Positions 9,041 to 60,485 of a DNA stretch of 64,000 nucleotides are shown here, piece after piece; positions within the stretch are counted from its first letter, which is position 1, and each line of letters opens with the position of its first letter. Source of the stretch: Odiellus spinosus (Eukaryota; Arthropoda; Arachnida; Opiliones; Phalangiidae); NCBI GenBank assembly GCA_963920705.1, contig OY987230.1, positions 20,981,320-21,045,319 of the forward strand. The letters are read 5' to 3'. The notes below the pieces were generated by a model that worked only from the letters and a program-made list of their open reading frames with translations, ran no database searches and was not told the origin of the DNA. The translations under genes and the position numbers were made by a program.

Positions 9041-9047
9041 ATGTTAG

Positions 9048-9381
9048 CAGAAGCCGATGAAACCCTCCTTTGAAGTCTACTACTCTAATGTTCCATATAG
9101 CGCTCCTCTCTGTATGGGTAAAATTCACGATTTTACGAGATCGGAGGGGTCCTACTTCATGCCCCCTGTCAACGGAAAATTGGAAACTCTCTCTCCACAA
9201 ACGACGACGTTTTTTGACGAACTCCAAGGCTGCTAGAGATATTAGCTCGACGAACTCCCGCTCCGAAAATATCTACCGTTAGGAGGCGTACGAATCGCGC
9301 TTTTTGAAACTAACCCATACAGAGAGGGGTAGACAAGACCCGGGAGTAATAGACTTCAAAGGAGGGTTTCATCGGCTTCTG
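9048..9381 (-). mobile_element. 337-bp MITE (CAGAAGCCG family) copy 1, subfamily A
   Basis: Terminal inverted repeats begin CAGAAGCCGATGAAACCCTC and are near-perfect for about 37 bp, imperfect for about 75 bp. Flanked by the 7-bp duplication ATGTTAG (9041-9047 and 9382-9388). The interior has no transposase, so it is non-autonomous. Strand here is relative to copy 3. Confidence 0.95.
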
Positions 9382-9640
9382 ATGTTAGACATAAATAAGG
9401 AAATGTAGCCTTTCTTTGAACAAAGGATTGGTAAAGAAATAAAACTTTATTAGTTAAGATTTTCCCAGGTTTCCAAAAATTGCAGTGTACCACTGACGAT
9501 AACCATGCGATGGTCAAGTAGTTTTAAGAGCTTTGTAGCAATACCTGATTTTCCAAGGAATTACAAACCTAACAATAGGACTTGTTGAGTAAGTCAAATT
9601 GCGTTGACCAGTTTAAATAAAATAATATTAACTATTAAAT

Positions 9641-9780
9641 TTGCAAGTTTCGGAACTTTGGAAATTGATTATAAAATAAGGAAATATTTTTGGTGAGAGT
9701 TATATTATTGTTTTTCTCATTACTTTAACATTCTTAATCGATTAAAAATAGCTTGTTTTGGCCTTTCATTCTCCCTTTAA
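9641..9780 (+). mobile_element. TTAA MITE, right half only (same family as 36828-37286)
   Basis: Matches the last ~140 bp of the 36828-37286 element, from GCAAGTTTCGGAACTTTGG to CATTCTCCCTTTAA. The left half is absent. Confidence 0.82.
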
Positions 9781-9784
9781 AGGT

Positions 9785-12035
9785 TTGCATTCAAATCATA
9801 TTTGAAAGAAATATGTTTCGCTGCAACACTCTGCAAATTATTTGTCGATCATGATCAAATTGGCCAAAATACTAGTAACCTAAAACTACCTTATTTAATC
9901 CAAGAAAAAAATCAATATCTACCGCTATGCCTAGAAAGATCAGACTACGTGCGTGGCTACTAATCAAAATCCTGGGTGATATACAGTTTCTAACAAACTA
10001 AGGCTTAGCGAGAGGACTAGGTCGAGAGAGGAGGATATTTTCTTCGCTAAGTCGAATCGGATTACGCGAGACGGATCGACCTTGGAAAGAACGAGATGAA
10101 TAATGCCTCGTTCACATTATACTCCGTAGAAGTAAATTAAATCTTCTAGATAAGTAGCCAAATTTGAATTTGGGGTCAATAGGTGGCCTTTAATGACCAG
10201 TTCGATCCACAATACCTATCTCATAGTAAACACCCCTTACTAAACAACAGAATTTCAAAAATTACTTTCTCCTTACGCGGTGTGGGGGTTAGTTCAGCTA
10301 TAAACAAAATTAATTAGCATCCTCCTTTGACGACGTTACAGTTTCATCAACTACCATCCTACAGAGACAGGTGACACTACTATAAAAAAAACTAACCTCT
10401 CTCCCTTATTGGAGAGTTTTTGCAACCGGAATCTGAACAATTAGCTCTAGCGTCACGAAAAATAGTAGATCAGCTAGGCCTATCTCAAATTATGAAAAAA
10501 TTGTATAGTGTGAACTTAGCCAAAAGACTTGGCTAGGAGGCATAATATATCGGGAATTGAGAAGAAACTAGGAATAGCGGAGAGTTAAAATGCAAGGCTA
10601 GTCGAGGGCTCAATGTCATCGACAAAACGGATTATATAAAGGCATCTCAGATAGACTAGCTCTCTTCGCCACCATGATTGTTAACCCAAAAATACACCCA
10701 ATCTTCTTTTCCCGCAATTTTTTTATTCTTGATTGCCTATGTAGTATAACTTCCCACGCGTCTATATAGAACGTCCCACATCCAGGTTACAATAAGATTA
10801 ACGCCTCCACATCTTTTTTCTTCATTAGCTCGGGCGATTCAATTTGAATCCTCGAGCAAAAAAAAATCAATGATTTCATTCTTAAAGGCCCTATCTGCTC
10901 TGAAATTTGCTCCTTCAAAATGCTCTTCCCTTATGCAGACATCCTAGCTTTGACTGTACAGTTAGTTATGGTCAACGTCGTCTGCTAAGCTAGGAAAGAA
11001 GTCGACTTTAAGGGGATTTAAAAACGCAGGTAGCCCCTTTCACAGCCCTTTTATTTGCTCTGAAATCCGCCCCTTACTTAATCTTCCCTTACGCGCAGAG
11101 CCTAGCTTTGACTGTGCAGTTAGTTATGGTCAACGTCGTCTGCTAAGCTAGAAAAGAAATCGACTTTAAAGGGGATCGCAGATAGTCTCTTTAATGCAAA
11201 TTCAAGATGAAATGAAAATTATTCGTATTCAGCTAGGCTGCATTCTCCCTTTAAGTTAACAAATCATAGAGAAAACAAGTATCCTAGCTTCAAGCTTACT
11301 GTCAACTAAAAAACAGAATGATTCGTGAGGCACTCGTGTCGCTATTCCAATTCCCATACTCCCAAACCGAAGCTTATAAAGACTGGCAAAAACCTAAAAT
11401 GGAAATGAAGGAGGCGAGGGATTCGGCAAAATTCCTAATCAGAAGAAGTCACATTTAATAGAATTTGGTTTTTATTTTATTTCTTTTTTTGATTCCCAAA
11501 CGACTTCAACCAACGCCAGTTAAAAGATAAAATAATAATAATTAAAGAAAAAAAAATAAAAGATTAATTTAAGGCATAATTTAATTACTGGTACTGATGA
11601 AAGAAAATTAAAGAAACCCGATGTTGAGCTAAAAATAATTAGCAGATTTTTAATTGATATCTTTAATCCTGGGAATTACGCTTACCATAAAATTGAATAA
11701 ATTGTTTGTTTCAATCTCAGTAAGAGATTTCAATAACTTTTATTAATTATTATTTTAAATAATTTAATTGCCTTGGAACCAACAAAAATAATCTGTTTCG
11801 ATGGAATATGTCAGGTTTCATAATTAAATATACAAACTATTCTACTTGCTGACAGGTTCCAATCAAGTGGGGTTGCAACCAAAGTCAATTGCAGATTACA
11901 CGGAGCCTATAGAGTTACCCCTTCACAATGAAAATTTTACAATAATATTTTTATTAATAATATTATTAATTAATTAGTTGCTCGTTATGAATGATTCGAC
12001 GTTAAAGTTACGTGGATTTTTCGTAAATAAAGACT
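9785..12035. other. No gene recognised; repeat fragments
   Basis: Apart from the duplication at 10893-11183, the stretch holds short inverted segments around 10.0-10.1 and 10.3-10.7 kb whose boundaries could not be fixed. AT-rich from 11440 on. Confidence 0.5.
10893..11183 (+). repeat. Direct duplication, two ~130-bp units ~160 bp apart
   Basis: Both units run CTGCTCTGAAAT, CTTCCCTTA, CCTAGCTTTGACTGTRCAG, TTAGTTATGGTCAACGTCG, TCTGCTAAGCTA and GACTTTAA. The block ends in a TTAA-MITE right end GCATTCTCCCTTTAA at 11229-11243. Confidence 0.85.
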
Positions 12036-12039
12036 TAGG

Positions 12040-13390: not shown

Positions 13391-13505
13391 AAATCGATTC
13401 TGTTTCAACAAACTACAGATGAAACTATAATAAATTTGTTAATAAAGATGATTCGGAGCAATTTAAATATCTGTTTCATTTTACAGTTTAAAATCGATTG
13501 GTATA
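13391..13505. repeat. Degenerate GGTCACACTAGC-type repeat remnant
   Basis: Resembles the middle and right part of 59491-59768 (GTTTCAACAA, GATGAAACTA, AAATCGATT in order) with many changes. It adjoins the truncated 316-bp MITE. Confidence 0.45.
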
Positions 13506-14258: not shown

Positions 14259-14529
14259 CAAGAAGGATCAGATAAGGAGAGGAAAAGTGGGAACGACGCG
14301 GCTCCTACTCTGGGAGAACGGGGGACAGACGGGGGTAGAGATGCTTCGTGGTAAATTGTTGTCACGTGGGTAAAACGAATCCTTTATGAGACGAGCTAGC
14401 TAGCGACCACGTGAGAACAGTTTACCTCGAGAATTTCCTATCCCCCCTTTCCACCCGAGTGGGAGGTTGGCTCTTCTCTCTCTAACTCAACGCAGCCCCA
14501 CTTTTCCTCTCCTTATCTGATCCTTCTTG
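14259..14529 (+). mobile_element. 271-bp MITE (CAAGAAGGATC family) copy 1
   Basis: Inverted ends CAAGAAGGATCAGATAAGG; perfect 7-bp duplication AACTAAC on each side. Relatively GC-rich interior without an ORF. Confidence 0.94.
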
Positions 14530-15313: not shown

Positions 15314-15652
15314 CAGAAGCCGATGAAACCCTCCTTTGAAGTCTATTACTCCCTGGTCTTGTCTACCCCTCTCTGTATGGGTTAGTTTCAAAAAGCGCGA
15401 TTCGTACGCCTCCTAACGGTAGATATTTTCGGAGCGGGAGTTCGTCGAGCGAATATCTCTAGCAGCCTCGGAGTTCGTCAAAAAAACGTCGTCGTTTGTG
15501 AAGAGAGAGAATTTCCAATTTTCCGTAGACAGGGGGGGTATGAAGTAGGACCCCTCCGATCTCGTAAAATTGGGAATTTTATCCATACAGAGAGGAGCGC
15601 TACATCGAACATTGGAGTAGTAGACTTCAAAGGAGGGTTTCATCTACTTCTG
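15314..15652 (+). mobile_element. 337-bp MITE copy 2, subfamily A
   Basis: Target duplication CTATAAG on both sides. The right terminus carries substitutions (CTACTTCTG where others have CGGCTTCTG). Confidence 0.94.
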
Positions 15653-19500: not shown

Positions 19501-19507
19501 TGGATCC

Positions 19508-19939: not shown

Positions 19940-20276
19940 CAGAAGCCGATGAAACCCTCCTTTGAAGTCTATTACTCCCGGGTCTTGTCTACCCCTCTCT
20001 GTATGGGTTAGTTTCAAAAAGCGCGATTCGTACGCCTCCTAACGGTAGATATTTTCGGAGCGGGAGTTCGTCGAGCGAATATCTCTAGCAGCCTCGGAGT
20101 TCGTCAAAAAAACGTCGTCGTTTGTGGAGAGAGAGAATTTCCAATTTTCCGTAGACAGGGGGGATGAAGTAGGACCCCTCCGATCTCGTAAAATTGTGAA
20201 TTTTACCCATACAGAGAGGAGCGCTATATCGAACATTAGAGTAGTAGACTTCAAAAGAGGGTTTCATCGGCTTCTG
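19940..20276 (+). mobile_element. 337-bp MITE copy 3, subfamily A (orientation reference)
   Basis: Target duplication ATGAACG. Subfamily A markers: GTTAGTTTCAAAAAGCGCG after the left repeat, GATATTTTCGG, and CTCCGATCTCG in the right half. Confidence 0.95.
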
Positions 20277-21941: not shown

Positions 21942-22278
21942 CAGAAGCCGATGAAACGCTCCCTTGAAGTCTATTACTCCCTGGTCTTGTCTACCCCTCT
22001 CTGTATGGGTTATTCTCAAAAGGCGCGATTTGTACGCCTCCTAACGGTAGATGTTTTCGGAGCGGGAGTTCGTCGAGCGAATATCTCTAGCAGCCTTGGA
22101 GTTCGTCCAAAAAACGTCGTCGTTTGTGGAGAGAGAGAATTTCCAATTTTCCGTAGACAGGGGGGATGAAGTAGGACCCCTTCTAACTCGTAAAATTGGG
22201 AATTTTACCCATACATAGAGGAGCGCTATATGGAACATTGGAGTAGTAGACTTCAAAGGAGGGTTTCATCGGCTTCTG
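21942..22278 (+). mobile_element. 337-bp MITE copy 4, subfamily B
   Basis: Target duplication ACTCAAT. Subfamily B markers: GTTATTCTCAAAAGGCGCG, GATGTTTTCGG and CTTCTAACTCG. It lies 21 bp beyond a GGTCACACTAGC-type repeat. Confidence 0.95.
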
Positions 22279-22896: not shown

Positions 22897-23234
22897 CAGA
22901 ATCCGATGAAACCCTCCTTTGAAGTCTACTACTCCAATATTCCATATAGCGCTCCTCTCTGTATGGGTAAAATTCCCAATTTTACGAGTTAGAAGGGGGT
23001 CCTACTTCATCCCCCCTGTCTACGGAAAATTGGAAATTCTCTCTCTCCACAAACGACGACGTTTTTTGGACGAACTCCAAGGCTGCTAGAGATATTCGCT
23101 CGACGAGCTCCCGCTCCGAAAACATCTACCGTTAGGAGGCGTACGAATCGCGCCTTTTGAGAATAACCCATACAGAGAGGGGTAGACAAGACCCGGGAGT
23201 AATAGACTTCAAAGGAGGGTTTCATCGGCTTCTG
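22897..23234 (-). mobile_element. 337-bp MITE copy 5, subfamily B
   Basis: Target duplication TTATTAC. The left terminus is changed to CAGAATCCG. It ends 150 bp upstream of the tentative first GPCR exon. Confidence 0.95.
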
Positions 23235-25450: not shown

Positions 25451-28400
25451 GCGAAAAAAAGCTTCCAAACATTAAAAAATATTTCCGAAAAGATTCCCAG
25501 ACAAAAATGAAATTTACCGAAAATAAACTTTATCAAAAACATCTCTAGAGCTCTAAAAAGAAAAGAAACATAGCCGACTTCAAAAGAAAAAGATTGGATT
25601 CGTTTATCAGGATCTTTTGCCTCACTTGTTAGTAATCTTATTGGTCTAAATAATAATTTGAACTCTTATTAAATTTCATTTGAAGGCCGAATTTATTTTA
25701 TTGGACCCGGATGAAGGTTCTTTCGTCAACCCAAGTTTCTTAACTAATCAACTTTGCGTCGAATTGAATGATAATGCCAATGTTTCTCTACGTCTCAATG
25801 GTAAGCCTAATTTTTTTGACTTAAGGCTATATTTGGGTTTAAAATAAGTTTTCAAAATGGTCAACGCTGTGGCGTATTGATACACAATCTTAAAAACGTC
25901 ATAAACAATTAAATAGTTATGGTGCAAAACTCCCCTTATACACAAGAGTATCCTGAACTTGCAACGTCATAGGCCTTCTATCATACAACCGGGTGTCATA
26001 CCCTTATAGCAAGAATCCATTCAGGTTCCATAATAATATAAGAGGGCCGCCATTCAATAACCATCCTCCCAAACTTTGTAGCAAAAGTTCGTCTGCTTCG
26101 AATCGATTTTTCAAGTAAATCGCTCTTGACATCTATTATTAACCCGCGCCACTAACGACCTTGACATAATATTTTGGGTAATAAAACTGGAGCCGACCGA
26201 AAAAAGATCAAAGCGTACAAATGTTGCGAAAATTGCAGACGAACTTTTGTTACAAAGTTTGGGAGGATGGTACCAGAGGCTAAAGCTATGCTCCCATATT
26301 CTTATGGAACCTGAATGGATTCTTGCTTATAGCAAGGGAAATAGGGTATTCACCCTTACAAGCACTTCCCTGTAAATGGGCGTCACGTGACGTCAGAAGA
26401 AAATTCACTGAGCATAGGTCAGAGTAAAGTTAAGTTCACACTGAAGAAAATATAGCTAAGGAATGGAGACTTTGATAAAAGGCGCGTTCACACTTGAAAC
26501 TTTAAAAACACTTGAACCGTTTTGAAAAGATCAAACTGTAAAGTTTAGGGGTCAAAAAGCTGATTTGAACGAATTAAAAAAGGTTTAAAAATGATTTCAA
26601 AGTGAAAACTTAGCTTAAATGACAAGTGTCTTTCCGGTTTGTAAATTTAAAAATAGTGCGAACGCTGCTTAAACGTTGAAACCTCAAAACTGAACTAGAT
26701 TGTGACAATATTCGCGTGAACGTGCAATTGACAACGGATCTACTTCTATCTATATGTATAGTATCATTCCGCCACATCTTTTCCTACATTGCAAACTTCG
26801 ATTTGATGAAAAATATACACGTGTATACGTAACCAGTCATCGAGATAACTGATGGGGAACGGAACCAGGAAAGAGGTTACAGGAAGGAAGAACGCGGATA
26901 TATATAGTGGGACCAAGGGTTCATGGTGTTTCTTCAAATATAAGCAAACTGAATTTTCTCAGATTTATTTCCTAAACCTTTTTTCTTTACATTTTTTTTC
27001 TCATCCCTAAACTATACATCTACTGATGTTTGGCCATTGTGTATTGGATATATGACTAAAAAAAGAAAGCGTCCAAGTCTATTGTCCGAAGACTTTCGAC
27101 GGTTGGAGTTGTTGGAACGCCACCCCAGCGGGTGAACACGTTTTTCAACCGTGTCCCGCTTTCGTACCCGGATTTGATTTCGCAAGTACGTTTCTATATA
27201 ACTTCTTATCAATGATCCCCACTAAAGAAATGTTTAAACTATAATCTTGAAAAGTAAAGAAAAGATTGAGACCCAATCTTCCGCTCTATTGATTTTACTA
27301 GTGTTTATACTCCATAGTCGACTTCTTGTGTCAATATATTTTAGGGAATTGAAACAAGGAGTATAGATACTAAGTATCCTGGATTGTATATTAAAGCAAT
27401 TATACACGGGATTGATTTATAATAATCGTTAAATTAACAATGGATTATATTACTATTGAAATGTCATAAAAATTTATATCTCTGGGTTGACGTGTTAAAA
27501 AGAGACTTCGAAAATATATAAATATAGGTAATTTGTTTTTTTTGATATATGACTAGAGTTAAATTTAAAACTTACTCAGGAAAATAGGCTTAGACGGATT
27601 CATGGAGATCCTGAATTACTTCGCATTTAAGTGTCAGCGACCAATCAAATGTAATCACGGAGATCTCGCCTTAATGTCAGGTTTTTGCCACATAAATGCG
27701 TAGCAATAAAGGATCTCCATAAATCCAGCTAAGCCTATTTTCCAGGTTAAGACTTTAATATTTGGTAAGACAGTTTAGAATAAAGAATTTCTCTAAAATT
27801 TTCGTATACTCCCTTTAACAGTGGAGGCGGCGAACAGAACTGGTGACTTAAAAACAAGTTTACGCGTAACTAAAAACAGCTTTCCAAGGCTATAAGATAC
27901 GCGCCGTTTGCATAATAATAGTCGAAAAAAAAAAAAAACTTATGGCTATGGATAGAATTTTTAAATTTCAAACCCACCACCATTCAGAGTGAATGCCTAA
28001 AATATGTCGGCGAGCCTTTTTTTTTTCTCTCTCAAATAATCCTCGCATCCCACGAAGCGTGATTTTCCATCCCAGACTCTGGAGCGTTTAAAACTAAGTT
28101 GAAGAGGCGTTGGGAGTATGTGTGACCCCCCCTATCATTATTCTAGAGAAGGAAAGAATATTGCGAAGCACTTTTCTTCAAATTTATTTTGATTTTTTGC
28201 GACAAACGTGGACAGACGAGATGGGAAGACGCTTTACTCCAACATCATTCGCAATTTTCCGCGTTGTTAAAGCTACGATAAGGAAACACCAGACGAAATA
28301 ACTGGTTCTTGCATTAACATTAAATATACAATTTTTTTCACCATCCGAAAAAATGATTTGAATTTGAATTTTCTGATTTAAAATGCGGAATCCCTCTTTC

Positions 28401-31400
28401 AAACGCTTCGAAATTCTTATTTCTGACTAAACAACCCATACGCTCGTGAAAAATGCAATGTTTTTCATGATATACTTGATCATTTGACTTTGCATTGATA
28501 GGGCCAGAGTCTCCTGGTATAATTTTAAGTTGGAATCAATCTCAGGACGGTAAAAATTCCGACCAATCACAGCCAGCCTTCAACAGTACACATTTACAAT
28601 CATTTTCCAACCACATATCGTTCTCGCCAAGTACATGGCAACGTTTTTTTTTAAAGGGAGAATGCAACCTAATTACAAGTGTTTTTTTATCGATTCCTTA
28701 TCGTTTAAATAGGCCTAATCCATCGATAAAAAGTTTACAATACAAATATTAAACTAGAAATAAATTTAAAACTTACCCTGAAAATAGGCTTAGCGGCATT
28801 CATGGAGATCCTGAATCGTGTCCGTGTAAGGTCTAGCGACCAATGAGCAAAGGCCCGTCGTTCACGCGAGATCTCCGCGAGACTTACGTCGCGCGCGATT
28901 GGTCGCTAGACCTTACACGTGAGGAAAACAGGACCTCCATGAATCCCACTAAGCCTATTTTCAGGGTAAGTTTTAAATTTATTTCTAGTTTAATATTTGT
29001 TTGTAAATATTTTCAGTAGTGGATTAGACCTATTTAAACAATAAGGAATCGATAAAAAAAATCACTTGTTGTTAGGTTGCATCCTCCCTTTAAAGAGACT
29101 CGAATGAAAAAGCACCGTTGAAGGGTGGATAATTAATGATTGGTTCGTTTTTTTAAAGAGGAGTTTTCCTTACGTGGTTTAACATTATTTATTAGTCCGC
29201 CATAGCTTTTACAATTATGTTAACTCTCTTTAAATGAAGTATAGGATAGATCTGAACAATTTTTAACCATAGAGTAATTTCCGAATGATTCAAAAGGATG
29301 GAAGGAAAAGTTCAAAAGTTTTCGACAGAGACTCTTCATCGGATTATGGATTTTTTGCCTTTTTATTTTTCTTCTAACAAAACTCGAACTTTTATTGCGG
29401 GATATTTTATATAAGACTAGTATATTGTCAATTCAATCTTTCTTTTTTTTCGGTAACGAGTACAAATCTAAAAAGTTCGAAATTTTAAAATAAAAATTGC
29501 TAGCAATACCAGAAGCCGATGAAACCCTCCTTTGAAATCTATTACTCCCGGGTCTTGTCTACCTCTCTCTGTATGGGTTTTTCTCAAAAGGCGCGATCCG
29601 TACGCCTCCTAACGGTAGATGTTTTCGGAGCGGGAGCTCGTCGAGCGAATATCTCTAGCAGTCTTGGAGTTCGTCCAAAAAACGTCGTCGTTTGTGGAGA
29701 GAGAGAATTTCCAATTTTCCGTAGACAGGGGGGATGAAGTAGGACCCCTTCTAACTCGTAAAATTGGGAATTTTACCCATACAGAGAGGAGCGCTATGTG
29801 GAACATTGGAGTAGTAGACTTCAAAGGAGGGTTTCATCGGCTTCTGGCAATACTAGTACGTGATGGTACTATGGTCGCGTGTCTATTGTAGAGCCTAAAG
29901 TTGATTCTCGCGCGTTTTGACACGCGATATAGTCGCTTTCGGGCGGTCTTTTTCGTAAAAGTACTTAATCGAGAAAGTTATACCGTTCGTACGTTAATTA
30001 TCGTAGACTACGTCATATATCGGGGAAATTTCTTACGAACGTGTCAACCCAGAGGTATAAAATTTTGAACCTGACGTTTTAATAGTATGTTAAAACCAAA
30101 AATATAATCCATTGACATTCGTAAAAATGGTGACAGCTTCACTTTAAATAAATCTCTAACGACAATTAAAAACAAATGAAACAGAAAGAAAATATCTTTC
30201 GGATGAGAAAACTTTTAGAATTTTGTTTCTAACTAAAGTCGAAGCGATATCAAAACCATTTCTACGCCTTTTTTTATAGTTATTGACTATAATAATAAAT
30301 TGAAGTAATATTTAATTGATAGCGCTATGAACTTAAATTGACGTACGATATTTACACCCACAACTCAAAGAAGATTTTGGTTTCGATTTTTATCAATTTT
30401 TCCCGATATTTTGATCAATAGAAAAAAGCTGAAATTATTTACGGCAAAACCTAATAGAGCGTGTTAATTTTCCTGGCATATATAACAAAAGTATATTGGA
30501 TACTAAAAGAAAAACGAATTTGTCCGATATCGACCCAAGATCTATAGTGATATTAAGTTCCAAAAAGGTTTTTATCCAATATTTCTATAAAGATATTTTT
30601 CTTTGGAGGTTAGGAAATTGTAGCTATAATTTATCTGTCACGAAACAAAATTGGTTCTTAAAACTTGTAGCAACGCGAACGGGTACGTATAACGTGACAA
30701 TAGTATTCTTGAAAGGAATAGCTTCACGTACACGGTAGCGTCAGGAAGACTTTTTAAAGTTTTTTTCCCTTCCTTACAATTTGAAAAATTGTCTTTACTT
30801 TTTTGCCTTTTGGAGGAATGGCTCATAAGTATTGCACTCCGGAAGGAACGTGGTATCGTCACCCTGCTACCAACAAGACGTGGTCAAACTACACGACTTG
30901 TATCGACAACGATGATTTACGGGTAAGACCCCATTCCTTGCCTCTCTAGTAACCCATTAATTGAGAAGGTGCAGCTAGATCTTAAAGGGATACTGTATAA
31001 CAATATTTTTTAATCGATTTCAACTATCAAAACTCACACCAAAGGTTTCGTCGTAATTTACAGTTAATTAACCAAGACGCGAATTACATCCTTTAAGCCT
31101 AAATCCGTTTTAAAGAAGAAATTTTAAATTGGATATATTCTCGTGAAAAGGGAGTTGCTAAAGCCAATGAAATCATCTCTTTCGGTTGACGTAATGCCAT
31201 TTAAAAGACGAACTCTCGGATTGGCATCAGCAATTAAGTTCTTTTTAAATAAATTTGAAATTTGATAATTAACCTCGAATTATCCCGAAACTTTTTGCGA
31301 ATTTTGATGTTTTTAAGCATATACAGAAGCCGATGAAACCCTCCTTTGAAGTCTATTACTCCCGGGTCTTGTCTACCCCTCTCTGTATGGGTTATTCTCA

Positions 31401-34400
31401 AAAGGCGCGATTCGTACGCCTCCTAACGGTAGATGTTTTCGGAAGGGGAGTTCGTCGAGCGAATATCTCTAGCAGCCTTGGAGTTCGTCCAAAAACGTCG
31501 TCGTTTGTGGAGAGAGAGAATTTCCAATTTTCCTTAGACAGGGGGGATGAAGTAGGACCCCTTCTAACTCGTAAAATTGGGAATTTTACCCATACAGAGA
31601 GGAGCGCTATATGGAACATTGGAGTAGTAGACTTCAAAGGAGGGTTTCATCGGCTTCTGGCATATATTGTAAGTCTTGTAAGTCGATTAAAAATAATTTC
31701 TTTCAACAGTCTATAGTATCCCTTTAAACACAGGGCAGCGGGGATAGCAGTCTTCGCACCCATGCCTTTGGGAAGGTTATTATTCGTCCCTTGCTCACGT
31801 GACCTTTCTACCCGTGTAGGGGAGGGTTGGGGCGGCTCAAAGTGTGCGCATGCATGCAGCCAGTGCAGGCATGATTAACTATTTCTTTAAGGGAACAGGA
31901 CGTCGCGCCTGTTTTTGATGAATGAAACTGATTTTTGGGTTCCCTTTCCCTCCAAATCTTTTCGTTTTTCATTCCCCTAGTTTCGTCAGTCCATCAATAA
32001 TCTGTACATCATCGGATATTCGATCTCAGTCAGCGCTTTAGTCATTTCTCTCGCCATTTTCTGTGCCTTCAGGTAAAAAATATGTATCTTATATCTATAT
32101 ACGGTGTATATTATAATTAAATACCGAGGGTCGATAGAGAATATCGCGCCAAAACAATGTAATATATAGAGGTAGCCTGAGAAATCTTATCGCGACTATT
32201 TTAAAGGGAGAATGAAGTCAAGCAAAACAATTTTTAATTTCCTTATCCTTTAAAATTATGAAAACACGGCAGAACTGAAGTATTTCCGTAAAAATTTAAA
32301 TTATATATATCTGAAAAATTGCTAAAATATTAGAATAAATCTTTTATATGTTTTCTGGATTATTATAGTGGCAAAAGTTGATTTTGGCAAATGATACGGT
32401 TGTTTTTAAACTAGATCTCTATCGAAAAATGTACTTAATTCAGAGTACCATTAATTTTAAACATTTCGGTTTCATTTTCCCTTTAGGTTTATTCACTGAT
32501 ATTTAAAATAAGCCTAATTAATCTTAAAATGAAGATTTATTAACTCCAATTTAAGTCAATTTTGAAACGGAGCAGCCTTTAGTGTCTCATATTAAGCGCA
32601 TTAAATAAATTAAATTTAAAACATAATTAAGTTTGGGCATCAAACCAATACCCGTAATAATTGGTTGTAATAAAAGATCGCTACTTCTCTAGTGTTTAGA
32701 AAGAAGCTGATGTTTAGGGGTCAATTTCGTAATGTATTTTGTATTGAACGCCTGTAGAAGTGTTTTAACTACCGCACTTCGGTGTTCACGGAAAAGTAAA
32801 CGCGTAGGAGTTGAGTATGTAATTTTAAAATATAAAATCAATTTTATTCCTATTTTTGCCAAATATTCTCTAAATTATTAAACATTATTAATGTTAAGTT
32901 TTAAATGATATATTTTGAAAACCAATCTAGTTAATAGCCTTGGCACGAATGGTATATATAGTCAGCGAGACGCGTACTTAATGAGAGACTGAAAAATCTG
33001 ATAAACGAGTGAATAGGGAGTTAGAATGACGGGTAAACAAACCGTAAATCAGTAGCTCACGCGAAGCAACGAGGTTAAAAGCGCTAGGAAAACCAAAACC
33101 ACTAACAGAATGTATCCATAAGCAAAGTAATACGTCTCTTTGAGACTCCTCTAAGGCTACGTCGCTGGGGTTTCGCTACATATCTATTCTGTATCAAAGG
33201 GATAACAACACGACACGATTCAAATTTATTTTAGTCAGAAATTTATTATGAAAGGGACACTCAATTCGGGCCTCGTCAAAATGATCTCGCGCCAAAAACA
33301 CGTGAGTTTCATTTTCAAGAATTTGAAAAAATTCCAGAGGCTGTTTTCCCACGCGCGTGACGTCATAGTTATTTTCGGTCTTGGGATACTTAACTCGAAC
33401 CAAGTGATAGATAAAAAATACGGTATTTTAGTCACTAGCTAAGGTAAAGGAGACCTCCCATGATTTTTTACAAAGAACAATTGAATGAGGTCATTTATTT
33501 GATCCTCGAAGTCTATCCTAGTTTTACGTTAAAATAAAATAAATTACGCGTTCATATGATAGTATCCCTTTAAAGATTTAACGGGGTTTTGTTGGTGTGT
33601 TAAAGGTCTTTACGATGTACCCGAATCTACATCCACAAGAACCTTTTCTCCTCCTTTATCTTCAACAATGTTATGTGGATAATTTGGTACACGACCATAG
33701 TCAAACGACCGGACGTCCTCCTACACAGCGCCGTAAGTATGCCACCGTAACCTCTGACCCTTCACCCTCAATATTTCCCAACGAGCGACTGACGATGTTC
33801 TAGCTTCCGAGGGTTTGTTTTTCCCTATCAAAGGGTACGCGTTTTCAAAGATTTCTTTGGTAATTTACAGAGCTTCATAAAAGTTAAAATTAATATGATA
33901 TTTATAGTTTCAAAAATAAACCACTGTATAAATTACCAATTTGCAAAATTACGGTAATTTAGAAATGTAATTAAGCTCCTTTCCACCCTCTATTTTGCAT
34001 AGAGTATATAGGTGTATTATTTTAAATTAAAAATCTTACTATATTTCCCTTATACGTGTCAAAACATTACATCATCATCAGTCTCTCGTCGGGTCATTGC
34101 GGCGGTCGTGTGTTATCCATTATAAACTTTTTACTTTTATCAGTTATTATAGTCTCTAATTATAATTTATGGTTGAGTTGACCCGCAGGGTTTTCCATTT
34201 TTCGTTTCGCGCACGCGTATTTAGGCTCCCTGTATCATCTTGCACATTCTAGTGCAGTATTCCCTGGTCTCCAATTATCTTTGGATGTTTTGCGAGGGGC
34301 TTTATCTGCACACCTTACTCGTCGTCGCCTTTGTCAAGGAAGAACGCTTAATGTGCTGGCTTTACGTAATAGGATGGGGTATATAAAATATAAATATATT

Positions 34401-36774
34401 CCCTTATCAACAAAGTATATCAGAAGGGGATAAATTCACACTTTTCTTCACGCTAACCAATTCAGTTATCTCCTTCTGGTTATATGTATTTGCAGAAGCC
34501 GATGAAACCCTCCTTTGAAGTCTACTACTCTAATGTTCGATATAGCGCTCCTCTCTGTATGGGTAAAATTCCCAATTTTACGAGATCGGAGGGGTCCTAC
34601 TTCATACCCCCTGTCTACGGAAAATTGGAAATTCTCTCTCTCCACAAACGACGACGTTTTTTTGACGAACTCCGAGGCTGCTAGATATATTCGCTCGACG
34701 AACTCCCGCTCCGAAAATATCTACCGTTAGGAGGCGTACGAATCGCGCTTTTTGAAACTAACCCAGACAGAGAGGGGTAGACAAGACCCGGGAGTAATAG
34801 ACTTCAAAGGAGGGTTTCATCGGCTTCTGGTATTTGTAAAGGTATCCTAGATGTCTACGACTACCAATAACCATTATTTTCACACAAACCTCAAATAGGT
34901 CTACCAGCCTTGTTAACTTTAACGTACACGACAGTTAGGGCAACGGCGGAGACATCTGATTTAGCATAGTAGGCATAAATTATTTATAATTTTAATTTAT
35001 TATAATTGAATACTAAGAAATAATTTTCTTAGTTGTTGGATATTAGAGAGTGCCTCAGTATGGATTTTATCGGGACCCGTGTGTTTTTCAATGTTGGTAA
35101 GCCACATTGAAATGAATAAGATTTAAATGATTAAGATATTATTATCAATCTTAACTATTTTTTTATTAATCGTTAGCTCAATCTGTTTTTCTTAATAAAC
35201 ATCGTGAGGGTTCTGGTAACGAAATTGAGAGCCGTTAACAATAATACGGACTCCAATAACACAAAGTAAGCATTTTACATCAATACTTATATTTAGGCTT
35301 AAATTTTAAATTATAGTTTATATTCCCCTTAATTCTGACATTCAAACGTTTCAATAATTGGCTTAGAAATCGCGCTCAAACGCTAATTGGCCCAAGACTG
35401 GTTAAAGACGAGATTTAATTATTATAATTATTGTTAAGCCTACTTTTCGAGTATCAGTAAAATAGATTTCGATTTCCCCCCACATCCTGTTTAAGTATAC
35501 GTATACCTTAAGAAGTTTTGTTAACTTTAATTTGCAAATAGGGTGTTTGCGAAAATGTTTCCTCTGACCTGGTCTCGTTCCTTTTTGGGATGTTTCAGGA
35601 AAGCCGTTCGCGCTACGCTGATTTTGATTCCGTTACTGGGATTACATTACGTCATCACCCCCTTCCGACCGGAACCTCGTTCGCACGGAGAAGCTCTTTA
35701 CGAAACTGTCTCCGCTACTGTCACATCTTTTCAGGTAATTATACCATATATATACCATTTCAATACGCCCAAAGAGCTTTTTATTCCATTTTAACTTGAA
35801 AGCGGGTATAAAAGCTAGGATAATATCTATTTCGCGATGAAACCGAAACAATAGAAATAAAGGAAAAGGATAATTTTGTACGCGGTGTGAAGTTATATTG
35901 ATTAATTTAAGAATCAGTTGGAATTTGGTTATAGAAGAGGTTGGAACGCTGTATTACAACTCAATTGTAAATAATATGGACAATGACATCTCTATATCTA
36001 TAGAACTCTCTCTATTTCTCTACAAATGCTGTAGAAAGTTTTAGATTAGACAATTAATGGAACCGATCAATTTTGCACAGAAATAGGCTCTTAATATATA
36101 TATAAACCCTTTTCTTACGACACCCAAATGTTGGACAGAAAATAAGTAACTTAAAAATGCTTTTAACCTGGTACCCATCTTTTTTTTTTTTTTTCGAATC
36201 TCTACCTGTATATTTTAAATGCCAATATTTTTAAATTCTAACTCACTTAGGGATTTTGCGTTTCTCTGCTCTTTTGCTTCTTTAACGGCGAGGTAAGTTA
36301 GATTTGTTTTCTAAAACATATTTCTAAATATTTGAAATTTGGAAAATTGAAGCACTTTAATTTTTTTTTTTTTTTTTTTTCTCTTTAAATTTTATTTTAA
36401 GATTTTGGGTTTGGTCAGAAGGAGATGGAGACGAGCGCGAATGATAAGACACGAAGATCTAAGATTTTCTAAAGTTTTGGCCACAACCGTCACTGTAAGA
36501 ACAGGTTCAGAAACTTTTTTCTTACATTCTTATAATCTAAATTTAATTTTTTTTATTTAAAATTTTTTAAAAAATTAATTAAATTCTTTATCAGTTTATC
36601 TTTGATCTTAAAAAAATAGTTAATTAACGTTCAACCTTTCAATTAATTGTTGGTTTTCATTCGAATATAGTTACGCTAAAATGTTTCGAAATTATAATCA
36701 GTTTTGAGTTTTCTAATTTCTCCCTCTTAAAATATTTGCTGACACAGTGGGACGACGAGCACACGACGTTGTGA
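23384..36774 (+). CDS. Class B1 (secretin-family) neuropeptide GPCR, DH31/calcitonin/PDF-receptor-like, spliced gene (exons joined)
   Basis: Plasma-membrane receptor for a peptide hormone; class B1 receptors bind the ligand with a cysteine-rich ectodomain and usually raise cAMP through Gs. Exons: 23384-23449 (tentative), 25686-25800, 27078-27185, 30816-30922, 31981-32072, 33606-33732, 34225-34378, 34899-34968, 35033-35096, 35177-35265, 35599-35734, 36251-36292, 36402-36494, 36748-36774. All introns are GT-AG and phases match at every junction, giving 428 codons plus stop, within the usual family length. The ectodomain has exactly the six conserved cysteines (QLC, YCP, SCW, PCP, KYC, TTC) with FDGWSCW, GTW and WSNYT motifs. 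The core shows LYIIGYS (TM1), [12 protein letters not shown] (TM2), [13 protein letters not shown] (TM3), GWG (TM4), CW (ECL2), RVLVTKL (TM5 end), [15 protein letters not shown] (TM6) and LLFCFFNGE (TM7). Closest remembered relatives are insect DH31/hector-type receptors, but the subfamily is inference. Not secured: the initiator codon, the signal peptide and the end of the C-tail. Confidence 0.93.
24138..25165 (+). repeat. 32-bp satellite array, ~32 units, with higher-order structure
   Basis: Unit GATTTCATTAGATTTCGAAA + TCATTAGTGGTG, containing the palindrome GATTTCGAAATC. Variants CCTTAGAGG and CATTAGTGG alternate in blocks, and an aberrant TTTCATTGGATTTCG unit recurs at 24481, 24779 and 25141. 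It lies in the intron between the tentative first and second GPCR exons, or just 5' of the gene. Confidence 0.97.
25421..25446 (+). repeat. Poly-A run (26 A)
   Basis: Homopolymer between the 32-bp satellite and the 25686 exon; an indel-prone place in assemblies. No retrotransposon body was recognised upstream. Confidence 0.9.
25686..25800 (+). CDS. GPCR exon: N-terminal ectodomain with first conserved cysteine
   Basis: Acceptor TTGAAG|GCC and donor AATG|GTAAGC; 115 nt, phase 0 in, phase 1 out. It encodes 38 residues including TNQLCVELN and one NVS glycosylation site. The single Cys supplies the first of the six ectodomain cysteines, which the downstream exons lack. That count is the main argument that the exon belongs to this gene. 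An in-frame stop lies shortly upstream of the acceptor, so it cannot extend far 5'. It sits about 0.5 kb after a 32-bp satellite array. Confidence 0.75.
26010..26325 (-). mobile_element. 316-bp MITE (CAAGAATCC family), complete, in GPCR intron
   Basis: Termini CAAGAATCCATTCAGG and the reverse complement; perfect 7-bp duplication CTTATAG (26003-26009, 26326-26332). No coding potential. Inserted in the intron between exons 25686-25800 and 27078-27185. Confidence 0.93.
26480..26670. repeat. Dispersed repeat shared with 12040-12190, in GPCR intron
   Basis: Bounded by GGCGCGTTCACACTTG and TAGTGCGAACGCTGC, which are imperfect inverted repeats; about 190 bp, no ORF. Confidence 0.5.
27078..27185 (+). 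CDS. GPCR exon: hormone-receptor domain, cysteines 2-4
   Basis: Encodes [12 protein letters not shown] followed by [15 protein letters not shown] and FA: the diagnostic core of the hormone-receptor (HRM) fold, with the Trp and three cysteines in family spacing and an NAT glycosylation site. Donor A|GTACGT at 27186. Two in-phase acceptors are possible, giving starts 27066 or 27078. The second is preferred because the likely branch point TGACTAA at 27052-27058 is too close to the first. An in-frame TGA lies just upstream of both. Confidence 0.9.
27550..27818. mobile_element. TTAA MITE fragment related to the GCAACC family, in GPCR intron
   Basis: Core AAAATAGGCTTAG...GATCCTGAAT and its inverted partner are recognisable, as is the right end TACTCCCTTTAA at 27807-27818. 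The left terminus is missing or too diverged to place. Confidence 0.6.
28651..29093. mobile_element. TTAA MITE, GCAACC family, copy 2, in GPCR intron
   Basis: Complete: TTAAAGGGAGAATGCAACC to GGTTGCATCCTCCCTTTAA with TTAA at both ends. Inner arms GGTCTAGCGACCAATGAGC and the reverse complement form a central hairpin. Confidence 0.92.
29510..29846 (+). mobile_element. 337-bp MITE copy 6, subfamily B, in GPCR intron
   Basis: Target duplication GCAATAC. Located in the intron between the two hormone-receptor-domain exons (27186-30815), same orientation as the gene. Confidence 0.95.
30031..30148. repeat. Dispersed repeat end (GTGTCAACCCAGAGG...GGTGACAGCTTCACTTTAAA), in GPCR intron
   Basis: Third copy of the motif pair seen at the window start and at 5344-5412, in the 3.6-kb GPCR intron. 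Confidence 0.6.
30816..30922 (+). CDS. GPCR exon: hormone-receptor domain, cysteines 5-6
   Basis: Joined in phase to the previous exon it reads [14 protein letters not shown], then [13 protein letters not shown] and IDNDDLR. GTW..HP and WSNYT.C are signature segments of the class B1 ectodomain. Two glycosylation sites (NKT, NYT) are present. The acceptor AG follows TTTTGCCTTTTGG; the donor is CGG|GTAAGA. The preceding 3.6-kb intron carries two TTAA MITEs and one copy of the 337-bp MITE. Confidence 0.92.
30982..31727. mobile_element. TTAA MITE with AGGGATACT ends, interrupted by 337-bp MITE copy 7, in GPCR intron
   Basis: Ends TTAAAGGGATACTGTA and ATAGTATCCCTTTAA; the terminal repeats extend imperfectly through TTTTTAATCGA. 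Without the nested element and its duplication it is about 400 bp. It fills most of the intron between the hormone-receptor and TM1 exons. Confidence 0.88.
31324..31659 (+). mobile_element. 337-bp MITE copy 7, subfamily B, nested in a TTAA MITE in a GPCR intron
   Basis: Target duplication GCATATA. It shares with copy 9 (44648) two otherwise absent changes, a one-base shortening of the A run before ACGTC and CCTTAGACAGG for CCGTAGACAGG, so copies 7 and 9 are the closest sisters. Confidence 0.95.
31981..32072 (+). CDS. GPCR exon: TM1
   Basis: Begins [14 protein letters not shown] and continues as a hydrophobic stretch ending IFCAF: class B1 first transmembrane helix. Strong polypyrimidine tract (TTTTTCATTCCCCTAG) and donor AG|GTAAAA; phase 0 in, phase 2 out. 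A second in-phase acceptor eight bases on (start 31989) would remove FR-adjacent residues only partly; the first fits the family better because the DLxFRQ junction is kept. The preceding intron carries a nested MITE pair. Confidence 0.93.
32194..32490. mobile_element. Diverged TTAA MITE with GAGAATGAAG ends, in GPCR intron
   Basis: TTTTAAAGGGAGAATGAAG on the left and TTTCATTTTCCCTTTAGG on the right, about 295 bp apart. The right end has lost a clean TTAA. Confidence 0.5.
33194..33573. mobile_element. Probable AGGGATACT-type TTAA MITE in GPCR intron
   Basis: Right end GATAGTATCCCTTTAA at 33558-33573 matches the 30982-31727 family. The left end CAAAGGGATAACAACA at 33195 is diverged and its TTAA lost. 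The interior contains TGACGTCA at 33358. Confidence 0.5.
33606..33732 (+). CDS. GPCR exon: first intracellular loop and TM2
   Basis: Encodes [17 protein letters not shown], then a hydrophobic helix with MWIIWY and [10 protein letters not shown]. The RC.R..IH.NLF pattern is the class B1 intracellular loop 1/TM2 motif. Donor GCC|GTAAGT. The acceptor lies only 32 bp after a TTAA-flanked MITE end at 33570-33573, so part of the splice-acceptor context derives from repeat-adjacent DNA. Confidence 0.94.
34225..34378 (+). CDS. GPCR exon: TM3 and start of TM4
   Basis: Opens with APC, the conserved extracellular cysteine at the top of TM3, then [19 protein letters not shown] and LYLHTLLVV, and ends VIGWG of TM4. 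NY.WM..EG.YLH is the strongest single class B1 signature in the window. Donor GGG|GTATAT, phase 1. An in-frame TAG forms the acceptor, so the exon cannot start earlier. Confidence 0.96.
34493..34829 (-). mobile_element. 337-bp MITE copy 8, subfamily A, in GPCR intron
   Basis: Target duplication GTATTTG. It makes up about two thirds of the 520-bp intron between the TM3/4 exon and the loop-2 exon, leaving 114 bp to the donor side and 69 bp to the acceptor side. Confidence 0.95.
34899..34968 (+). CDS. GPCR exon: TM4 end and second extracellular loop
   Basis: A 70-nt exon completing [21 protein letters not shown], with the conserved Pro of TM4 and the Arg at the start of loop 2. The donor GTAGGC is weaker than the others, but phase 2 joins correctly to the YCW of the next exon. 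The intron before it holds a whole 337-bp MITE; without element and duplication that intron would be about 177 bp. Confidence 0.88.
35033..35096 (+). CDS. GPCR exon: loop-2 CW motif and first half of TM5
   Basis: The first base completes Tyr, then [18 protein letters not shown] follows. The Cys pairs by family rule with the TM3 cysteine, and WI..GP is the TM5 entry motif. 64 nt; acceptor TTTTCTTAG, donor TTG|GTAAGC. Confidence 0.93.
35177..35265 (+). CDS. GPCR exon: second half of TM5 and third intracellular loop
   Basis: Encodes [18 protein letters not shown] and an Asn/Thr-rich loop ending NTK. The N..RVL..KL motif is where class B1 receptors contact the G protein. Donor AA|GTAAGC, phase 2, joins to KKAVRAT in the next exon. 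Confidence 0.95.
35599..35734 (+). CDS. GPCR exon: TM6 and third extracellular loop
   Basis: Encodes [18 protein letters not shown], then TPFRPEPRS and a segment ending TVTSFQ. K..RATL...PLLG is the class B1 TM6 signature; the PFRP..S...YE..SA..TSFQ pattern is what most suggests the DH31/PDF-type branch. Acceptor GTTTCAG, donor CAG|GTAATT, phase 0. Confidence 0.96.
36251..36292 (+). CDS. GPCR micro-exon: TM7
   Basis: A 42-nt exon encoding [14 protein letters not shown], the conserved end of TM7 and start of helix 8. Both ends are phase 0 (TTAG|GGA and GAG|GTAAGT). Class B1 genes commonly have a 42-nt exon at this position. Confidence 0.96.
36402..36494 (+). CDS. GPCR exon: helix 8 and cytoplasmic tail
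   Basis: Encodes [18 protein letters not shown] and KVLATTVT: a strongly basic amphipathic helix 8 following the NGE motif, then a tail with Thr clusters that could be phosphorylated. It is preceded by a T-rich tract of about 20 bases. Donor ACT|GTAAGA, phase 0. Confidence 0.88.
36748..36774 (+). CDS. GPCR candidate terminal exon: end of C-tail with stop
   Basis: With acceptor GACACAG|TGG the frame from the previous exon gives WDDEHTTL and a TGA. The final T-T-L would fit a class I PDZ-binding C-terminus. An alternative reading exists: a weak donor at AACAG|GTTCAG (36504) would put this exon in another frame that stays open to a good donor AAG|GTAAGG near 36792, so the tail might continue downstream. 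No convincing polyadenylation signal was found before the next MITE at 36828. Confidence 0.45.
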   Translation, partial: WDDEHTTL

Positions 36775-44647: not shown

Positions 44648-44983
44648 CAGAAGCCGATGAAACCCTCCTTTGAAGTCTATTACTCCCTGGTCTTGTCTAC
44701 CCCTCTCTGTATGGGTTATTCTCAAAAGGCGCGATTCGTACGCCTCCTAACGGTAGATGTTTTCGGAGCGGGAGTTCGTCGAGCGAATATCTCTAGCAGC
44801 CTTGGAGTTCGTCCAAAAACGTCGTCGTTTGTGGAGAGAGAGAATTTCCAATTTTCCTTAGACAGGGGGGATGAAGTAGGACCCCTTCTAACTCGTAAAA
44901 TTGGGAATTTTACCCATACAGAGAGGAGCGCTATATGGAACATTGGAGTAGTAGACTTCAAAGGAGGGTTTCATCGGCTTCTG
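44648..44983 (+). mobile_element. 337-bp MITE copy 9, subfamily B
   Basis: Target duplication ATAAAAG. Sister of copy 7 by two shared derived changes; lies 0.5 kb after the 23-bp satellite. Confidence 0.95.
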
Positions 44984-48250: not shown

Positions 48251-48355
48251 ATTTTTTTTTTTTTTTTTTTTTCATAATTTCTTCGTAGAAGACTTAATTG
48301 GCGTCATTGGAGTAGTAGTTTACTCTAGATTTATTTGGCGTATAAACGAAATAAA

Positions 48356-48778: not shown

Positions 48779-48789
48779 CTCGTGTGGCT

Positions 48790-50177: not shown

Positions 50178-50513
50178 CAGAAGCCGATGAAACCCTCCTT
50201 TGAAGTCTATTACTCTAATGTTCCATATAGCGCTCCTCTCTGTATGGGTAAAATTCACAATTTTACGAGATCGGAGGGGTCCTACTTCATACCCCTGTCT
50301 ACGGAAAATTGGAAATTCTCTCTCTCCACAAACGACGACGTTTTTTTGACGAACTCCGAAGCTGCTAGAGTTATTCGCTGGACGAACTCCCGTTCCGAAA
50401 ATATCTACCGTTAGGAGGCGTAAGAATCGTGATTTTTGAGATTAACCCATACAGAGAGGGGTAGACAAGACCCGGGAGTAATAGACTTCAAAGGAGGGTT
50501 TCATCGGCTTCTG
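50178..50513 (-). mobile_element. 337-bp MITE copy 10, subfamily A, diverged
   Basis: Target duplication CCTCTAG. Carries the most internal substitutions of the set (for example AAGAATCGTGATTTTTGAG in place of the usual segment). Confidence 0.94.
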
Positions 50514-56317: not shown

Positions 56318-56656
56318 CAGAAGCCGATGAAACCCTCCTTTGAAGTCTATTACTCCCGGGTCTTGTCTACCCCTCTCTGTATGGGTTAGTTTCAAAAAGC
56401 GCGATTCGTACGCCTCCTAACGGTAGATATTTTCGGAGTGGGAGTTCGTCGAGCGAATATCTCGAGCAGCCTTGGAGTTCGTCAAAAAAAACGTCGTCGT
56501 TTGTGGAGAGAGAGAATTTCCAATTTTCCGTAGACAGGGGGGTATGAAGTAGGACCCCTCCGATCTCGTAAAATTGGGAATTTTACCCATACAGAGAGGA
56601 GCGCTATATGGAACATTAGAGTAGTAGACTTCAAAGGAGGGTTTCATCGGCTTCTG
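56318..56656 (+). mobile_element. 337-bp MITE copy 11, subfamily A
   Basis: Target duplication TTAAAAT. The A run before ACGTCGTCG is lengthened. Confidence 0.95.
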
Positions 56657-58236: not shown

Positions 58237-58574
58237 CAGAAGCCGATGAAACCCTCCTTTGAAGTCTATTACTCCCGGGTCTTGTCTACCACTCTCTGTA
58301 TGGGTTAGTTTCAAAAAGCGCGATTCGTACGCCTCCTAACGGTAAATATTTTCGGAGCGGGAGTTCGTCGAGCGAATATCTCTAGCAGCCTTGGAGTTCG
58401 TCAAAAAAACGTCGTCGTTTGTGGAAAGAGAGAATTTCCAATTTTCCGTAGACAGGGGGGTATGAAGTAGGACCCCTCCGATCTCGTAAAATTGTGAATT
58501 TTACCCATACAAAGAGGAGCGCTATATGGAACATTAGAGTAGTAGACTTCAAAGGAGGGTTTCATCGGCTTCTG
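58237..58574 (+). mobile_element. 337-bp MITE copy 12, subfamily A
   Basis: Target duplication ATTTAAC. Scattered private substitutions (CACTCTC, AAAGAGG). Confidence 0.95.
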
Positions 58575-59490
58575 ATTTAACTTAAAACACTTGTTAAACT
58601 TCGCAAAAACGTAATCTTTAAATCTCTTCAAGTAGACTCAATTCAGGCCTTGTCAAATTGTTCTATTTGGTCTTAATTCTGTTTGTAATTTTCTAAATGA
58701 ACAATTTTTTAACCAAATTAGTTGATTTTTCCTCTTTGGGAATTTTACGCGAGTACATCGAAGTAACGATGACGTCACGCGTTTATGTAAAATAATTCTT
58801 GATAATGAAATGTTTGGCTCTTGTACAATTTGACTAGGTCCTAATTGCGTCAAGTTGCGTGTCTATCTTAAGCCTAAAAAAAATTAAATTCAAACTAACG
58901 CTTGGAGATTAATTAAAAAACAAGTGTTTGAAATAAAATCTGGCGTTTCTGTACCCAAGGGGAGGTTTCACATGGGCTACTTTATCCCAATGAAGTATCA
59001 ATTCGCTTGAGCTTTACTGATTTGGCTATAACGTGGCGTTTAAAGTTTAGCGTTAGTGACTGACAGACAGACATTGTTACATAGAGAATTATATATTTTA
59101 AAGTTTTATCCGCCTTTACTTAAATTCTACAACGGAGAATAATCGCCGAGAAAGAAATAGTATCGCTCTAACTAATGAAATTGGATTCCGGGAAGAAATT
59201 TGAGTTGGAAGAAAAAAAAAGAAAAGTTAAGTTTTTTTTTTGGTTTTTTTTTTTAAAGGTTGAGCACTTAGAACTAGAAAAAGTAATAGGCTGATTGGCC
59301 TTGAACCCGAACCTACTAAGTATATTCTTTTACTTTCGATAATGGATGGTCTGTCTACCAAATTAAATCACGATTGACACCCTAAACCATCAAAAACGCA
59401 ACTGCTGACTCGATTCGGGACTTTTAAAATCGAACTCGCGCAAATTTCGTGAATTCAATCACACGCCTGACGTCGGTTTCAATATAGTCA

Positions 59491-59768
59491 CTATAGCCGC
59501 GTTCGTACTAAGTCTTGAAATCGATTTAGATTGATTCAAAACGTTTCGCTATTGTCGTGTGAACGGAAACCGATTCGATTTCTCGAAACTGCTTCGGGAA
59601 CCAGTTTCGTACCGATTTGGTTTCAACAACCGATAGATGAAGCTACGATAAATCGATTTATAAAGATGATGCATGAACACGTGACGCTTAAAACGATTCC
59701 TGGCGATTTGAATATCGGTTTGATTTTAAAGTTTCAAATCGATTAAGAAATGCTAGTGTGACCGTAGA
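59491..59768. mobile_element. GGTCACACTAGC-type dispersed repeat, copy 3 (inverted)
   Basis: Reverse-oriented relative to 21641-21920, ending TGCTAGTGTGACCGTAG. Shares segments such as CGAAACTGCTTCGGGAACC. An open frame across it is incidental. Confidence 0.72.
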
Positions 59769-59863
59769 TTATTAGTAAATTAAATTATCGAATGCTAACA
59801 AGGCGAAAGCTTAGACGCCTTAATGTACAACTACATCTAGTATATAACTTTAAAATATATTAT

Positions 59864-60200
59864 CAGAAGCCGATGAAACCCTCCTTTGAAGTCTACTACT
59901 CCAATGTTCCATATAGCGCTCCTCTCTGTATGGGTAAAATTCACAATTTTACGAGTTAGAAGGGGTCCTACTTCATCCCCCCTGTCTACGGAAAATTGGA
60001 AATTCTCTCTCTCCACAAACGACGACGTTTTTTGGACGAACTCCAAGGCTGCTAGAGATATTCGCTCGACGAGCTCCCGCTCCGAAAACATCTACCGTTA
60101 GGAGGCGTACGAATCGCGCCTTTTGAGAATAACCCATACAGAGAGGGGTAGAAAAGACCCGGGAGTAATAGACTTCAAAGGAGGGTTTCATCGGCTTCTG
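59864..60200 (-). mobile_element. 337-bp MITE copy 13, subfamily B
   Basis: Target duplication ATATTAT. It lies about 95 bp after another GGTCACACTAGC-type repeat (59491-59768). Confidence 0.95.
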
Positions 60201-60485
60201 ATATTATCAATTTGACATTTTTAAAGCCTATATATTGATAAGGAGGCAATTAATAAAATTCTGAAACTAAATACATATTCCAGTTTTTATAACGATAAAA
60301 ATGATTAATTACATCAACAAGGGATAATTATTAAAGGGAGAGTATAAGCCACGCACAAAAAAAAAATTTGAAAATTGTGGTGGATACTTTCAATTAAAGT
60401 GACACTGAGGCATATTAAAATATTCAATAAATGTTTTTGAATTGTACCAAAAATTGGTAAAGATCATTCGGATTTTGTCTTTGAA

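Follow-up and report, generated by a model that had tools for sequence, protein, structure and literature searches.

The window considered here, a stretch of 64,000 nucleotides of the Odiellus spinosus genome (assembly GCA_963920705.1, contig OY987230.1, positions 20,981,320 to 21,045,319), contains thirteen copies of one short repeat, each flanked by a duplication of seven base pairs, and raises the question of which transposase moves this repeat. The repeat is a miniature inverted-repeat transposable element (MITE), as follows from its short uniform length, terminal inverted repeats (TIRs), target-site duplications (TSDs), high copy number and lack of a transposase. The family is probably mobilised in trans by a transposase of the P superfamily acting with a 7-bp stagger, comparable to the Drosophila element Galileo. 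A P-like transposase, one of the candidates named by the first-pass annotation of the window, is favoured because of the length of the TSDs, the loci in which both ends of the element are found fused, and the abundance of P transposase genes.

When the 32-bp TIR was searched for along the window, with up to eight substitutions allowed, exactly 26 ends were found, which pair into 13 elements. Five copies lie on the forward strand, at 9048..9381 (334 bp, TSD ATGTTAG), 22897..23234 (338 bp, TTATTAC), 34493..34829 (337 bp, GTATTTG), 50178..50513 (336 bp, CCTCTAG) and 59864..60200 (337 bp, ATATTAT). The eight copies of opposite orientation occupy positions 15314..15652 (339 bp, CTATAAG), 19940..20276 (337 bp, ATGAACG), 21942..22278 (337 bp, ACTCAAT), 29510..29846 (337 bp, GCAATAC), 31324..31659 (336 bp, GCATATA), 44648..44983 (336 bp, ATAAAAG), 56318..56656 (339 bp, TTAAAAT) and 58237..58574 (338 bp, ATTTAAC). 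The TSD is an exact 7 bp in all 13 cases and is also the longest exact match of the flanks in each, the chance of a single random 7-bp match being about 1e-4 as estimated from the base composition. All the start coordinates and all the duplications of the first-pass annotation are thus correct to the letter, and its share of nearly 7% of the window agrees with the 6.8% measured; its length of 337 bp is near the mark, the true spread being 334-339 bp rather than a constant value.

The TIR is perfect in the consensus, and the element begins with CAG and ends with CTG. In the first copy, the left TIR (9048..9079, forward strand) starts with CAGAAGCCGATGAAACCC and the right one lies at 9350-9381. 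Both ends match the 32-mer without mismatches in eight of the 13 copies, and one end carries one or two mismatches in the other five. The mean pairwise identity of the copies is 95.9% (92.5-99.1%), and their alignment, judged by eye, contains two sequence subtypes. The consensus also includes an inner 15-bp inverted repeat, CCTCTCTGTATGGGT, located 58-72 bp from one end and 55-69 bp from the other. Open reading frames (ORFs) overlapping the copies are 82-149 amino acids long and extend into the flanking DNA, and no sign of coding was found in them.

The family is not confined to the window. The searched assembly comprises 443 Mb in 286 contigs (labelled C1 and so on; loci fetched from them are labelled L001 and so on). 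Eighteen regions of 10 kb chosen by place (180 kb), the only set not selected by sequence, contained eight full copies and one cut by a region edge. Scaling from these nine copies gives about 22,000 copies genome-wide (95% range 10,000-42,000) and, by multiplication, about 1.7% of the genome. The window, which was not randomly drawn, is about four times denser than this sample (13 copies versus 3.2 expected, Poisson P 3e-5). A larger set of 40 paired copies comprises the 13 of the window and 27 from loci elsewhere, many of these loci having been chosen for a MITE match or altered ends; L001 was excluded as lying inside the window. At least six further full-length copies (in L038, at L039 1194 and L045 1501, and in L046, L048 and L049) were left uncounted because a scan permitting substitutions only did not pair their altered ends. 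The 40 paired copies are 323-343 bp long with no intermediates, and three one-ended fragments (L029, L041 and L047) exist beside them.

The 7-bp TSD is exact in 30 of the 40 copies, has one mismatch in six and is lacking in four, and no copy of the 40 has an exact flank match of 5, 6, 8 or 9 bp. The eight full copies of the unselected sample behave similarly, with five exact duplications and three with one mismatch. The 7-bp duplication of the window therefore extends to 36 of the 40 copies, and the opinion of the first-pass annotation that the family departs from the 8-bp duplications usual for hAT is borne out. Substitutions private to a copy average 0.9% (0-2.1%), and 0.6% in the window. 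Judging from this divergence, the burst of the MITE appears fairly young in relative terms; the suggestion of recent transposition is supported by the private substitutions and qualified by the 10 of 40 copies that lack an exact TSD. A 17-nt string from the MITE end was not encountered in the text of 5.39 million papers, and the end string had no matches among viral contigs.

The target of insertion is palindromic over a 13-bp stretch, as was found by the comparison of 36 sites. Position 2 of the TSD is T in 29 sites and position 6 is A in 25, that is, 54 of 72 letters with both strands pooled (p 4e-12). The base two positions upstream of the TSD is T in 28 sites, and A stands at the mirror place in 25 (53 of 72 pooled letters, p 2e-11). 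Galileo, a member of the P superfamily, is described as making mostly 7-bp TSDs with the palindromic consensus GTANTAC (PMC4168063). The hAT element Hermes, for which the target nTnnnnAn is given, with T at position 2 and A at the last position but one (PMC10368747), prefers like letters, so that the target motif alone does not decide the superfamily. The CA...TG ends, the TIRs of about 30 bp and the palindromic target are all traits of the P superfamily present here, and they are not specific to it, since hAT elements share part of them; the observed TSDs also fall within the 7-8 bp of that superfamily.

A genome-wide search revealed 31 loci where at least 11 exact nucleotides of both TIR ends are brought together with a gap of 0-30, the fused structures measuring 25-43 bp (median 36). 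The same design with a gap of 31-61 (53-83 bp) returned a single locus of 57 bp, a difference with p 8e-9 if both length ranges are equally likely, and a reversed-pattern control gave nothing in either gap range. Thirteen of the 31 loci retain 14 nt or more of each end, and a search with an 18-nt anchor had no match at either end for 23 of them. Such searches are blind to overlapping ends and to scars without TIR letters. The P transposase is reported to cut 17 nt inside its TIR, which is unusual among cut-and-paste transposons, and to leave 17-nt tails (PMC7776569). Because of this cut, the published Drosophila P junctions that keep at least 11 nt of both ends measure 25-44 bp; by our own tally they make up 33 of 66 isolates from Rad51-deficient flies, the other half keeping less, so that they would escape a search for at least 11 nt like that used here (PMC2895639). 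The ranges of the fused loci and of the published junctions match; the shapes of the two distributions differ somewhat (Kolmogorov-Smirnov p 0.05 by isolate and 0.44 by distinct class).

One putative scar, the only one read together with its flanks, stands outside the 31 loci owing to a mismatch. It occupies positions 1493-1529 of L043, where a short filler separates 15 nt of one end, with one mismatch, from exactly 16 nt of the other; the 7-bp flanks on the two sides, ACTCGAC and ACACGAC, differ at one base. In the locus L044, a full MITE copy is succeeded by 23 bases of foreign sequence, then by a 16-nt remnant of an end and by a flank that resembles the first one with one mismatch. This layout would follow from incomplete copying off another MITE and end joining to a 17-nt tail.

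These observations can be arranged in a mechanism in which a P-superfamily transposase would bind the terminal repeats of 32-37 bp and perhaps also the inner repeat. One strand would be cut at each end of the element and the other about 17 nt inside the terminal repeat. Insertion into AT-rich palindromic sites would then produce the 7-bp TSD after gap filling. Where the excised site is joined and not copied back, 11-17 nt of each end with a short filler may remain, and the fused loci would represent such excision scars.

The genome is rich in genes of suitable transposases. A search with PF21787, a catalytic domain of P-superfamily transposases, gave 386 candidates; the 150 that were scored all exceeded the cut-off, several of them in long ORFs, and the domain was found in none of 14 control genomes. 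Four ORFs from L033, L035, L036 and L037 contain the P domains PF12017, PF21787 or PF21789; the solved structure of the Drosophila P transposase (6p5a) aligns with one of these at 1e-17. The match between L033 and L034 reaches the edges of the fetched stretches, and that between L036 and L037 starts at an edge and stops inside, so that the ends of P elements are unreadable in L032-L037. Nearly 600 bp upstream of a P transposase frame (L036 183-780 and L037 2623-3221, 89% identity) match in both orientations, and this stretch seems to be palindromic. The listed P hits cluster at C1:2-10 Mb, C2:28-32 Mb, C4:2-4 Mb and C8:6-8 Mb.

A partner encoding the transposase was sought among TIRs that continue into non-MITE sequence. 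Three designs and the inner repeat gave 5, 217, 99 and 85 sites, 100 of the 217 being listed; each pattern is estimated to miss a random continuation with a chance of about 45-90%, and an autonomous partner could consequently have escaped. Seventeen loci fetched from two of the designs (5 and 12) comprised 13 in which the site falls in or next to a full-length MITE, the three truncated elements of L029, L041 and L047, and the scar of L043. From position 1637 onward, L039, on the forward strand of C1, shows a TIR and then 1.35 kb of non-MITE sequence that starts like an exon; this promising end was dropped as a partner. The repeat adjoining this TIR recurs without it at seven places (C4, C8 and C248) among the 40 scored of 465 candidates, with alignments beginning from base 40, and thus appears to be a different element that had entered a MITE.

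Several observations weigh against mobilisation by a P transposase, in part from the fused loci and in part from the transposase genes. At least 18 nt of one end are kept in eight of the 31 fused loci, and of both ends in none; this exceeds what a 17-nt cut alone gives, and fillers matching by chance may explain a part of it. The whole letters were read for two of the 31 (C3:9160180 and C5:7767216) and the flanks for none. A pair of fused loci agree in their first 29 letters, so the events need not all be independent. The fused loci also lean longer than the P isolates (median 36 versus 32). Breaks in altered MITE ends are spread over nucleotides 16-24, with a mild excess at 16 (10 of 43), in a set where the pattern requires at least 16 nt; of the 100 listed strings, the remaining 57 are small-indel variants by the rule used. 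The long retained ends and the unread flanks would also suit an explanation in which the fused loci are hairpin-mediated or other internal deletions that carry no information on the transposase; inverted repeats can be lost by deletion during replication. We regard this explanation as doubtful. Random deletions should yield products of 53-83 bp too, where one locus was found as against 31, and the paired copies include no intermediates although one-ended fragments do exist.

As for the genes, no longer element with these TIRs and a transposase, the object that the first-pass annotation had proposed to look for, was found in the searches for TIR continuations. None of the listed P hits lies within 10 kb of the 324 listed TIR or MITE sites, the nearest being at 10.2 kb, and two of these sites are within 5 kb of one hAT hit (C8:11787473). 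TIR variants do not lie near P or hAT hits beyond what chance would give, by an expectation that assumes a uniform spread, an assumption that fails. Eight P-rich bins of 2 Mb among the 114 bins of C1-C8, chosen after the fact as having at least four P hits each, hold 56 of the 93 listed P hits but two of the 112 altered MITE-end sites. Taken across every bin, the two kinds of site are weakly anticorrelated (Spearman -0.17, p 0.07). The genes of hAT transposases are likewise frequent, PF05699 giving 220 candidates of which 150 were scored, all above the cut-off, and CAG...CTG ends are common in hAT elements. In addition, the P elements of flies and mosquitoes are described as making mostly 8-bp TSDs (PMC4168063, PMC1562414). 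The main rival is a hAT transposase with a 7-bp stagger, similar to the fungal hAT7, with the fused ends arising as later deletions. It would agree with the Hermes-like target and with the existence of hAT families making TSDs of 5, 6 and 7 bp (hAT5, hAT6 and hAT7, exceptions to the 8-bp TSD that is absent from all 40 copies), but hAT7 is reported from rust fungi and clusters with fungal and plant hATs (PMC12730594). The scars of the hAT elements Ac/Ds are short deletions or palindromic breakpoint insertions, free of transposon letters in our reading of the source, and scars of this type would give no reason to expect the 31 fused ends of 25-43 bp (PMC5873905). The hAT hit near the two MITE ends recurs at C1:3309954 with equal score and frame length, and no site of the inner-repeat search lies near that second copy. 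On balance, we find a hAT mover unlikely. Some other superfamily, such as Dada, KDZ, MULE or a novel one, is a very improbable mover, even with genome searches that covered P and hAT transposases only. Comparable scars, with parts of the TIRs retained, are not known to us from the Dada, KDZ and MULE groups, for which no search aimed at them was made. The TSDs fit the 6-7 bp given for Dada (PMC8869645) and the 4-10 bp given for the IS256/MuDR group (PMC10045372), but the KDZ elements Zisupton and Dileera are described as making 8-bp TSDs (PMC12730594), and Dada-U6 and Dada-U1 as lacking TIRs and targeting small-RNA genes (PMC3706591). Dada, which the first-pass annotation had listed as a candidate, was rejected, as the MITE has 32-bp TIRs and no small-RNA genes were found in the window (no tRNAs by ARAGORN and no Rfam matches at the gathering score).

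Mobilisation by a P transposase with a 7-bp stagger can also be considered for other repeats of the window, of which three more MITE families, here termed F2, F3 and F4, all begin with CA and end with TG. Family F3, with ends CAAGAAGGATCAG, also written CAAGAAGGATCAGATAAGGAG, is present at 14259..14529, 41649-41939 and L018 6061-6352, with an exact 7-bp TSD in all three copies. Family F2 (316 bp, ends CAAGAATCCATTCAGG) occupies 26010..26325, 13078-13393, L009 5488-5803 and L017 4479-4794; the 7-bp TSD is exact at two of the four, including 26010..26325, one copy has six matching bases, and the copy at 13078-13393 has no matching TSD. Family F4 (399-418 bp, ends CAGAGGTATATAATAACC) is found at 5795..6193 with a 7-bp TSD containing one mismatch and at L044 2292-2709 with an exact one. 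The 7-bp stagger may thus be a property of a whole group of transposases present here and not of one family, small as the numbers are. That a P lineage with 7-bp TSDs moves several unrelated MITE families, its long staggered cut, an unusual trait established by the biochemistry of the Drosophila P transposase, being readable as natural scars throughout the genome, is in our view an evenly balanced proposition. As a MITE family in itself, the repeat is ordinary. If the proposition is true, the repeat would preserve a natural record of P-type insertion and excision in a non-model genome, its insertions, in the thousands, informing on the target motif and its scars, in the dozens, on the cut site, and the generality of the 17-nt cut and of the 7- versus 8-bp stagger across P lineages would become open to inquiry.

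Some further features were noted. The string at C7:18637906-18637934 reads like an F3 element nested in a MITE end after 15 nt, and the element beside the orphan TIR of L039 starts with CAGAGGTA, as F4 does. The repeats at 28651-29093, 55152-55593, 63649-64000 and 19507-19907 are about 400-440 bp long, with halves that are inverted and ends (TTAAAGGGAGAATGCAACC) that resemble TTAA, and are possibly piggyBac-type MITEs. Five long tandem arrays lie at 42643-44154, 24159-25144, 47691-48255, 48349-48779 and 37992-39011, with units of 23, 32, 28, 21 and 172 bp, respectively. Outside the window, L012 2-811 encodes a domain of RNA-dependent RNA polymerase of eukaryotic type (PF05183).

Among the known systems, 1360 of Drosophila, from the P superfamily, has a 7-bp TSD. 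The hAT7 elements of Puccinia and Melampsora share the 7-bp TSD and differ in being fungal and in that twenty described families carry a TET/JBP gene (PMC12730594); no report of TIR-retaining scars was met for them, and no search aimed at such scars was made. Dada is alike in its 6-7-bp TSD and unlike in the lack of TIRs in Dada-U6 and Dada-U1 and in its location mostly in tRNA and snRNA genes (PMC3706591, PMC8869645). The P-MITEs of Anopheles gambiae are likewise short non-autonomous elements tied to P transposons, with TIRs of 27-31 bp, but they are described with an 8-bp TSD and with 5' and 3' sequences common with identified P elements (PMC1562414). Galileo resembles the family in its TSD length, its AT-rich palindromic target and its many non-autonomous copies composed of TIRs and a spacer; it differs in its very long TIRs and in having A in place of T at the second base ahead of the TSD (PMC4168063), and the MITE studied here is linked to no transposase. 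The Drosophila P element makes an 8-bp TSD, and its end sequence differs except for GATGAAA, a likeness that chance could produce; it is similar to the MITE in its CA...TG ends and 31-bp TIRs (PMC7776569), as well as in the span of its excision junctions, 25-44 bp when each end retains 11 nt or more (PMC2895639). It seems that the MITE family leaves scars like those of the Drosophila P element.

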